Of a DNA stretch of 64,000 nucleotides, positions 9,162 through 11,545 are shown in pieces. The translations under genes were made by a program, and so were the position numbers. Origin of the DNA: a bacterium (GTDB lineage Bacteria; UBP6; UBA1177); contig JAEESW010000004.1 in the NCBI GenBank assembly GCA_016290135.1, positions 1 through 64,000 on the forward strand, given 5' to 3'. The number at the start of each line of letters is the position of its first letter. Position 1 is the first letter of the stretch. The notes under the pieces are model-generated. The model was not told the origin of the DNA. It ran no database searches and was given only the letters and a program-made list of their open reading frames with translations.

Positions 9162-9245
9162 AAAGTTTGTCTGATTATAATCCGATAAACTCGCAAAAAA
9201 TCGTAAGTTTGTCAGGTTATAACCCGATAAAATTGACAAAAAATC
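9162..9245 (+). repeat. Two tandem 42-base units, each holding a 24-base palindrome
   Basis: Units 9162-9203 and 9204-9245. Each contains TTTGTC, one base, a ten-base self-complementary core, one base, GATAAA: palindromes at 9165-9188 and 9207-9230. The core is GATTATAATC in copy 1 and GGTTATAACC in copy 2, so the two internal changes are symmetric. CAAAAAATC follows both. They lie 48-114 bases before the start of the ATPase gene and look like a double operator or a hairpin-forming leader. Confidence 0.75.
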
Positions 9246-9278
9246 TTTTTTTATTAAAAATTGCAATGGAGGTGGAGC

Positions 9279-10487
9279 ATGATCTACAGAAAAAAATATA
9301 TGGAAAAAATACTTCCGTTTGTGGATACGCCGTTCGTGAAGATTTTTACCGGCATCAGACGTTGCGGCAAATCGACAATCATGCAGATGCTTCGCGAAGC
9401 TCTGGCTGAGCGCGGGATCAAAGTTGAGCAGATTCTTTTTTACAAGCTTGATTCGCTTGAATACGAGAACATGACAAACATTGAACTCTTCAACGAAATC
9501 AAGGCTCACCTCTGCAAAAACAGAAAAACGTACATTTTTCTTGATGAAATTCAGGAAGTTGAATCGTGGGAAAAGACTGTAAACTCTCTGATGAGCGGTT
9601 TTGACACCGATATTTATGTCACTGGCTCGAATTCGAGGATGATGTCTGGCGAAATCTCGACTTATCTGACGGGAAGATACATCTCTTTCCGCATTTTTCC
9701 ACTTACTTTTTCTGAATATCTCGATTTTAGGGAAGCATACACCGAAAAAGGGACTTTGAAAGAGGAATTCGCCCGTTTCATGCGTTTCGGCGGCTTTCCG
9801 GCGATACATCTGCGCAATTATTCGGAGGATGAGGCTTACACGATTGTCCGCGATATTTACAATTCCACTATTTTCACAGACATTGTGAAAAGAAACGAAA
9901 TCCGCAAAGTCGACCAGCTTGAAAGGGTTGTTAAATACGCTTTTGACAACGCGGGACGGATTTTTTCAGGGCTGACGCTTTCAAAATATATGAAAAAACA
10001 GAACAGAACCATGGATCCCGAAACCGTTTACAGCTATCTGGAAAAGCTTGAAAAAGCCTATATTCTGCACCGATGCCAGCGCTATGACATAAAAGGAAAA
10101 GAGTTTCTTAAAACGCAGGAAAAATTCTATTTAGCCGACACTTCGCTGCGTTATTCCGTGCTCGGGTACAATTCTGACACGGTTTCTGCTATGATGGAAA
10201 ACATCATTTATATCGAGCTTTTGTCTCGCGGTTATTCCGTTTATGTCGGAAAAATGGATTCTTTTGAAATCGATTTCGTTGCCATCAGACAGAATGAAAA
10301 ACTCTATATTCAGGTCTGCCGCGAAATAAACACCGCCAAAACCGAAACCCGGGAATACGAAAACCTTCATAAAATCAAAGACAACTATCCGAAATATGTA
10401 GTAAGAATGGACGATTTCGCCGGCGGAAACAGCGAAGGAATCCGCACAATGCACATTTCAGATTTTCTCCTTAGCAGTGACTATTAA
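9279..10487 (+). CDS. AAA ATPase with DUF4143 C-terminal domain
   Basis: 402 residues. The AAA_14 domain has Walker A GIRRCGKST (25-33), Walker B YIFLDEIQ (85-92), a sensor TGSNSRM (115-121) and the family-typical SGEISTYLTGRY (123-134). The C-terminal part (about 200-402) matches DUF4143, which resembles a restriction-endonuclease-like fold (FEIDFVAIRQNEKLYIQV near 330). These genes are widespread, multi-copy and of unknown function, often in accessory DNA. ATG 9279 is chosen over TTG 9261 because GGAGG at 9268-9272 is six bases away. Flanked by palindromic repeats upstream and a 33-base tandem repeat downstream, which may be part of its unit. Confidence 0.88.
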   Translation: MIYRKKYMEKILPFVDTPFVKIFTGIRRCGKSTIMQMLREALAERGIKVEQILFYKLDSLEYENMTNIELFNEIKAHLCKNRKTYIFLDEIQEVESWEKTVNSLMSGFDTDIYVTGSNSRMMSGEISTYLTGRYISFRIFPLTFSEYLDFREAYTEKGTLKEEFARFMRFGGFPAIHLRNYSEDEAYTIVRDIYNSTIFTDIVKRNEIRKVDQLERVVKYAFDNAGRIFSGLTLSKYMKKQNRTMDPETVYSYLEKLEKAYILHRCQRYDIKGKEFLKTQEKFYLADTSLRYSVLGYNSDTVSAMMENIIYIELLSRGYSVYVGKMDSFEIDFVAIRQNEKLYIQVCREINTAKTETREYENLHKIKDNYPKYVVRMDDFAGGNSEGIRTMHISDFLLSSDY

Positions 10488-10538: not shown

Positions 10539-10603
10539 GATATGTCAAAAAATCGGCATTTTTACGAAAAAGATATGTCGAAAAATTGGCATTTTTTACA
10601 AAA
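10539..10603 (+). repeat. 33-base tandem repeat, two copies
   Basis: Copies start at 10539 and 10572. Both read GATATGTC, then A-run, TYGGCATTTTT, AC, A-run, with few mismatches. They lie 50 bases after the ATPase stop and 75 bases beyond the end of the opposing lipoprotein gene. Not a simple terminator: there is no strong GC stem. Confidence 0.6.
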
Positions 10604-10678: not shown

Positions 10679-11545
10679 TCAGTTTTCATCAATCTGAATT
10701 TCAACAGGTACAGTTATTTTTGAACCAGGAATGTTGAAAGAGGCTGTGTTGTTGTAAGTTTCAATAGTAAGAGCAATTTTTTCATCAGCGTTGTATGAGT
10801 AAAAGTAGGCATTGTCGAGCGGAGCATTGGGATAATATTCGTCATTGTGCTGAAAATTAACGATTTTAAAAGTTTCGTTGTCTGTTGCAAAATAGAATTT
10901 GGGACAAGGGTCAAGACACGGATGTGCATCCTCAGCTGAGCCTCCGGCATGATATATATCACAGCCTGTAAGGTGTGAAAAAGCCATCGAATCAGGAATG
11001 AAATCATGGGATGTCTCAGAATCTTTTTTAAAAATTATCGTTGCTTTCTGGAGTTTGAAAATAAACTCTGCTGCATCAAATTGATAAGGATAGCAGTCAA
11101 CTTTTTGTGCCTCTCTTGCACAGTCATTGAAAACATTGCTTTCGTCTCTAGTGAATGATGTCGAGCCGTAGGAAGTTTTTGTGCTGCATCCGTCACTGTA
11201 ACCTCCGGAATTGCCGGAATCAGTGTCGTCCGGATCATCATCAGGCTGCGGTTCATATGAATCTCCGTTATCTGGATCTGAGTCAGACAGATTCGTATCA
11301 ACTATATCGGCATCTGCATCGTTCGCAGTCTCGTCGGAACCAGTGTCGTCCGGATCATCGTCAGGCTGCGGTTCATAAGAATCTCCGTTATCCGAATCTG
11401 AGTCAGAAGAATTCGTATCAATCTTATCGGCATCTGCGTCATTAGCTGCCTCGCCCGAATCGGTTTTATCTTCGTTTTTCGAGTTTCCGCAGCCTGCGAG
11501 CAGAATCGTTACGAAAATCACACCGAGAAAGAGAAGTTTTTTCAT
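10679..11545 (-). CDS. Lipoprotein with repeated acidic linker
   Basis: 288 residues. Signal peptide with lipobox LAGC (Cys19). Residues about 28-107 are two near-identical 40-residue acidic repeats (NDADAD, IDTN or VDTN, SDSD, NGDSYEPQPDDDPDDT). A globular part without recognised domain follows (about 120-288), containing four or more cysteines (CAREAQKVDC, GCDIYHAGG, PCLDPC). Probably a surface-exposed outer-membrane lipoprotein with the Asp-rich region as a spacer. I do not recognise the C-terminal domain. Single gene with its own promoter. Confidence 0.8.
   Translation of the reverse strand: MKKLLFLGVIFVTILLAGCGNSKNEDKTDSGEAANDADADKIDTNSSDSDSDNGDSYEPQPDDDPDDTGSDETANDADADIVDTNLSDSDPDNGDSYEPQPDDDPDDTDSGNSGGYSDGCSTKTSYGSTSFTRDESNVFNDCAREAQKVDCYPYQFDAAEFIFKLQKATIIFKKDSETSHDFIPDSMAFSHLTGCDIYHAGGSAEDAHPCLDPCPKFYFATDNETFKIVNFQHNDEYYPNAPLDNAYFYSYNADEKIALTIETYNNTASFNIPGSKITVPVEIQIDEN
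11221..11460 (-). repeat. 120-base direct repeat inside the lipoprotein gene
   Basis: 11221-11340 and 11341-11460 are in-frame tandem copies of exactly 120 bases with scattered substitutions, coding the two 40-residue acidic repeats. The length is a multiple of three, so copy number can change without loss of frame. Confidence 0.85.

Follow-up and report, generated by a model that had tools for sequence, protein, structure and literature searches.

The PDC-S01 genes are candidate single-gene defence systems that encode AAA_14 and DUF4143 domains. The passages of PMC12988326 that deal with them describe PDC-S01 as awaiting validation and place it fourth in abundance among the defence systems of prokaryotes; according to the corresponding part of PMC13356809, no individual locus is more frequent in rumen genomes. 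No promoter, operator or autoregulation is mentioned in the available text of PMC12988326, nor are cis-elements in its PDC-S01 passages, and a search of the open literature for the function of DUF4143 (PF13635, COG1373) turned up almost nothing. The upstream repeats that are the subject of this analysis are an addition to PDC-S01, and were not found described in the open literature searched. A described precedent for repression by such an arrangement is RptR, a separate 9-kDa protein that represses a type I restriction-modification defence island through tandem palindromic repeats in the island's promoter; its site is a 6-bp palindrome in three 9-bp repeats (PMC12255303). PDC-S01 resembles that system as a candidate defence locus with tandem palindromic repeats in its own promoter, but it has a large ATPase as the only candidate binder, and its sites differ from gene to gene. 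The second likeness is to archaeal Orc1/Cdc6, in which AAA+ and winged-helix domains read repeated, partly symmetric DNA sites. Orc1/Cdc6 origin sites often lie near the initiator gene.

The window (the whole 64,000-nucleotide stretch of bacterial DNA that was analysed) contains a clear member of PDC-S01 at 9279-10487 on the plus strand. Its 402-residue product combines AAA_14 (PF13173, E=4.3e-35) with DUF4143 (PF13635, E=2.9e-17), both above the Pfam cut-offs, and is matched by the PADLOC model PDLC04787 (PDC-S01) at E=1.9e-151; a Shine-Dalgarno-like GGAGGTG occupies 9268-9274 (+). The gene stands alone, with a TraB-family gene upstream and a lipoprotein-like gene on the other strand (10679-11545, minus) downstream. 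Autoregulation in the style of type II toxin-antitoxin systems was considered and set aside, there being no small antitoxin partner gene in an operon. The lipoprotein-like gene has its own repeats, two 120-bp tandem copies at 11215-11454 coding for an Asp-rich stretch; coding repeats of this kind are frequent in the window's genome.

The AlphaFold2 model of the ATPase (pLDDT 89.7, pTM 0.89) has an AAA+ domain, a winged helix (residues about 211-285, encoded at 9909-10133, +) and, as judged from the model and residue comparison, a PD-(D/E)XK-like C-terminal domain (residues about 299-400; 10173-10478, +). The modelled winged helix consists of helices at 211-223, 231-240 and 247-259 and strands at 263-270 and 275-285, and residues 214-258 give a sub-threshold profile match to RpoN (E=0.27). 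On the strength of the model it is proposed as the DNA reader. In its probable recognition helix (247-259), T249 and Y253 are nearly fixed and the adjoining positions are highly variable. The nuclease motif retains E330 and D332 but has Q345 and C347 where an intact motif has E and K; throughout the window's clade Q takes the E position in 100% of members and K is absent, so that, as far as residues can tell, the C-terminal domain in this clade is probably not a nuclease. The motif's E and K are present in 92-100% of clades A and B; the archaeal clade D mostly resembles the window's clade in these residues. A sequence search found no clear solved homologue. Foldseek matches of the model comprise SSO1545, Cdc6/Orc1 proteins and the NLR/Avs4 STAND proteins. 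SSO1545 (PDB 2fna), an archaeal AAA+ ATPase, is the best of them (E=1.9e-8, TM 0.51/0.58) but is only 14% identical to the window protein. The Cdc6/Orc1 matches include the DNA-bound forms 2qby and 2v1u, with low global TM-scores (0.30-0.35). The window protein differs from Orc1/Cdc6 in its PD-(D/E)XK-like domain, in having 23 family matches in one genome and in the privacy of their sites; nothing was seen to support an origin system.

Two palindromes lie in the intergenic space that runs from the end of the TraB-family gene (9130) to the ATPase start codon (9279): TTTGTCTGATTATAATCCGATAAA at 9166-9189 and, 42 bp downstream, TTTGTCAGGTTATAACCCGATAAA at 9208-9231, neither having a strand. They sit within direct-repeat copies at 9163-9200 and 9205-9242 that are 82% identical (period 42, TRF score 124). 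The sequence-only reading that singled out this spot had described two 24-base palindromes in 42-base units, at 9165-9188 and 9207-9230; these are real, with the ten-base cores it gave, and lie one base to the right. Neither is perfect, each 24-mer having two non-complementary pairs. A search of the window for sequences resembling copy 2 gave three matches (0.01 expected), all of them inside the two palindrome sites. That reading had also proposed looking for solitary copies; in its own genome the window gene's site is confined to its promoter region except for one orphan with two mismatches, at C31:43222. Across a 257-Gb genome collection the 24-bp pattern was found in four stretches, three of which have it directly before a DUF4143 ATPase gene: a close relative (the same locus), a Methanoregulaceae archaeon and a Saccharibacterium. 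The fourth is a solitary Bacteroidales palindrome (L028:3534-3557), with no DUF4143 gene seen in the 8 kb of sequence inspected there.

Directly downstream of palindrome 2 is a candidate promoter, TTGACA-17-AAAAAT (9233-9261, +), which matches at 10 of 12 positions and, with 0.6 such sites expected in shuffles, is weak by itself; about 39 bp separate its -10 centre from the dyad centre of that palindrome. The Saccharibacteria homologue L111, 42% identical in protein sequence, carries this palindrome three times at a spacing of 42 bp, with a clearer promoter, TTGACA-16-TATAAT, after them. A promoter could be scored in 35 members of the window's clade. The best palindrome centre and the -10 centre are 36-44 bp apart in ten of these (the shuffled null puts 5.5% in that bin) and 76-88 bp apart in five, so that in part of the clade the -10 box stands one or two periods from the palindrome centre. 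Strong copies in this clade are upstream of the -35 box, a position that fits activation too.

The site travels with its gene. Nine same-genus orthologues, 87-99% identical, occupy several different genomic places and keep two palindromes 41-42 bp apart; their unrelated 5' flanks stop at the first repeat, and no matching 3' end was seen. A Bacteroidota homologue (50% identical) has related cores (TTATAACC, CATAACC) at 41 bp, and close homologues in different phyla have the element in common. Few genomes of Saccharibacteria (3 of 287) or Bacteroidota (7 of 297) have window-type genes, and cross-phylum comparison of the exact palindrome therefore rests on few cases. Upstream similarity follows protein identity (Mantel r 0.153, permutation maximum 0.151), with a median local upstream score of 13 above 55% protein identity and 9 below 45%. 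The link is a shallow one (r 0.15) because the sites diverge fast.

What holds for this gene holds, in altered form, for much of the family. The window's genome has 23 DUF4143 matches, and the upstream regions of these genes mostly have tandem repeats of their own, palindromic or not, with a sequence that is specific to the gene. When a repeat score was computed over the 160 bp preceding the start codon (starts being assigned automatically), the 99th percentile of the controls, 292 genes all drawn from this one genome (20 stretches of 20 kb plus the window), was exceeded by 15 of the 22 testable DUF4143 genes and not reached by the other seven; the median scores were 20.5 for the DUF4143 genes and 8 for the controls (P about 1e-9). 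In four other genomes (a close relative, a Bacteroidales, the archaeon and a Saccharibacterium) flanking windows served as the control, and 19 of 27 genes passed their 99th percentile (P about 1e-12), the sampled genes having been picked by homology score and being phylogenetically related. Sampling was extended, within incomplete search collections, to archaeal genomes, to plasmids (hosts in Bacillota, Pseudomonadota, Fusobacteriota, Spirochaetota, Bacteroidota and an archaeon) and to 43 viral-contig loci; these last came from an alignment query, a search with the window protein as single query having given no viral-contig match. Arrays are weaker there, the single-gene threshold being passed by 7 of 29 genes in archaea and 4 of 27 on viral contigs, and the preferred offsets in the three samples are mostly the same few values as elsewhere. 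(Of the 238 plasmid records in which the window protein has a homologue, 175 come from Acinetobacter.) The paralogues' elements are almost absent from the 464 kb of their own genome that were searched. The expectation of a conserved cis-element before AAA/DUF4143 genes, usable as a handle on them, is thus borne out by a family-wide excess of arrays with a clade-bound period: similar elements do stand before other family members, and in close relatives the symmetry is eroded, yet kept. The palindrome sequence itself is not shared across the family; its members have in common an arrangement, in which each gene has tandem repeats of its own at a period that depends on the clade. As an aside, sister DUF234 (PF03008) ATPases in related genomes (L230-L233) have a wide inverted repeat, AATCCGCAAAG...CTGTTTGCGGATT, upstream in two tandem copies at 58-59 bp, and a different repeat sequence, at 64 bp, precedes a DUF234 gene in L237; the principle of a self-addressed array may extend to them.

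The period is a property of the protein and not of the host. On a tree of 86 proteins it is 23, 32-33 or 39-42 bp according to clade, and by parsimony it changes 4 times, where none of 2,000 shuffles needed fewer than 12; host group, on the dereplicated set, changes 18 times against a shuffle mean of 17.6, which is to say that hosts are scattered as if shuffled. In 39 of 43 cases, where 16 were expected, a protein and its closest homologue from a different phylum agree in period class. Periodograms, for which clade membership was assigned by hand from the tree, peak at 33 bp (z 45), 40 bp (z 24) and 23 bp (z 17), with flat controls. The best offset is 32-34 bp in 17 of 17 clade B genes, and the archaeal clade peaks at 32-33 bp (z 13). 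The 40-bp peak belongs to the 72 genes of the window's clade (z 24), and persists (z 8) when only the 37 of them without a strong repeat of their own are taken. In clade A the 23-bp array is found in part of the genes only. Arrays are present in clades with and without an intact nuclease motif, and are therefore independent of it. The pattern as a whole suggests that each of these proteins recognises, and probably controls, its own gene.

The sequence-only reading had rested its case on symmetry kept by paired changes in the two arms. The dyad symmetry is real: over 19 distinct sites 80% of positions are complementary, against 18-37% with the axis shifted by 1-3 bases. The paired substitutions have fared less well. 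Only 27 of 5000 shuffles matched the total complementarity, but the 19 sites are related sequences. Core pair 12:19 is G-C in nine of the sites, A-T in three and half-changed in seven; with paired substitution weakly in excess and half-changed copies frequent, covariation is not taken as main evidence.

Some arrays have no DUF4143 gene behind them. Just downstream of the ATPase gene, at 10539-10603 (+), a tandem-repeat search located a two-copy array of GATATGTCRAAAAATYGGCATTTTT with a 33-bp period. In two related genomes (L129, L130) the same array has three copies and comes directly before a gene of the 33-bp clade, and in other related genomes it is, as in the window, without such a gene; by this comparison 10539-10603 is a relic of a lost PDC-S01 gene of that clade. 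The region L003:1501-1830 (from G000:C31:43222 onward) has a window-type palindrome, then a 23-bp array, then a DUF4143 C-terminal remnant whose best matches are 23-bp-clade proteins (E=9e-9). Here, therefore, the period predicted the clade of the lost gene, and the region, read from its sequence, is one spot with two generations of lost family members. About four copies at a 33-bp period at L080:13979-14092 (G000:C35:77979-78092), between two genes and with no DUF4143 gene nearby, are probably a further orphan. Such arrays mark lost family members.

We think it probable, if well short of certain, that the array is a cognate operator, bound cooperatively by the encoded ATPase via its winged helix, with autoregulation of its own gene as the outcome. 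Most PDC-S01 genes would carry two to four copies of a private DNA site in their own promoter region, the ATPase would recognise that site through its winged-helix domain and bind adjoining copies cooperatively at the spacing fixed for its clade (23, 32-33 or 39-42 bp, close to 2, 3 or 4 turns of the helix), and the resulting complex over the promoter would regulate transcription of that same gene, repression being the most likely effect. An ATPase that is mobile, a candidate for immunity and possibly costly to the cell would thereby carry its own thermostat into any host. We infer the binding by the ATPase, its cooperativity, the repression and the anti-phage role. Since the site is private, moves with the gene across hosts and has a clade-set spacing, the simplest reader is the encoded protein; spacing near whole helical turns puts the copies on one face of the DNA and so suggests cooperative binding, and placement in the promoter region suggests transcriptional autoregulation. 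Repression is favoured over activation on two grounds: several members have copies that lie over the -10 or the region of the start, and the expression of immune genes is commonly held low. A point against the proposal is that in related STAND proteins the winged helix often works in autoinhibition and not in binding DNA.

The alternatives differ in what they take the array to be for. One is that it acts as RNA, as leader hairpins or as a terminator of the upstream gene. Each copy is foldable (-8.7 and -6.5 kcal/mol, z -4.1 and -3.0), but in a longer fold of the region copy 1 pairs with copy 2, and nothing terminator-like was found. The choice between hairpin and symmetric protein site, on which the sequence-only reading took no side, falls to the symmetric DNA site because many family members have direct repeats that are not palindromic, because the copies are spaced by about whole helical turns and because a recognisable promoter follows the palindromes in the window and, more clearly, in L111; we regard the RNA reading as very improbable. 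Chance or low-complexity repeats in A+T-rich intergenic DNA could be entertained on the grounds that these upstream regions are indeed A+T-rich. The absence of such repeats from same-genome control genes and from dinucleotide shuffles disposes of that idea, and the sharply preferred offsets of 23, 32-33 and 39-42 tell against it too, leaving it a probability close to nil. A more conventional proposal makes the array the operator of a host regulator, and palindromes adjoining a -35 box are typical of ordinary regulators. A host regulator would not lead one to expect a different element at each paralogue in one genome, the same palindrome before homologues in different phyla and an archaeon, or a period that tracks the protein and not the host, and the copies elsewhere that a regulon calls for are essentially absent from the genome sequence searched. 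We therefore give this proposal little credence.

Two further readings grant the array to the gene and differ on its use. As a recombination or insertion end, it would be the edge of a mobile cassette. Near-identical genes in different places within the genus, with unrelated 5' flanks that stop at the first repeat, speak for this, as do the frequency of homologues on plasmids and the persistence of orphan arrays after gene loss. However, the matching 3' end was not seen, and conservation that begins at the first functional base would give the same picture; an insertion end seems to us decidedly unlikely. The other makes the array not mainly an operator but an assembly platform or a decoy in the defence reaction, on which, for example, an oligomer is held inactive until infection. 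The AAA+/STAND-like architecture, with NLR and Avs4 among the fold matches, speaks for it, as do the regular spacing of the sites, which suits an ordered oligomer, and the retention of repeats in clades with and without an intact PD-(D/E)XK motif. Against it, an independent platform would need neither the promoter position nor the -10 register seen in part of the window's clade, and we rate it as unlikely while taking it seriously. In a related and equally unlikely form, the ATPase may be parked as an ordered oligomer on its private array, with the clade setting the spacing, so that infection, on removing the binding or competing for it, would switch the gene on and also release active enzyme; were this sensor the true state of affairs, the privacy of the sites would prevent cross-talk among the many paralogues in one cell.

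The operator reading, which we prefer, has consequences for the family. PDC-S01 is among the most abundant candidate defence genes of bacteria and archaea, and the papers found, as far as their PDC-S01 passages go, give it no validated function; a cognate DNA site would provide it with a concrete and cheap biochemical assay. Each PDC-S01 gene predicts its own ligand, so that binding, dependence on ATP, oligomer geometry and regulation could be put to the test on dozens of independent pairs. The many natural pairs of protein and site would likewise be material for learning how winged helices shift their specificity. With the rule that period equals clade, orphan arrays may be read as fossils of lost members, and the turnover of these genes traced in the genomes through which they have passed.
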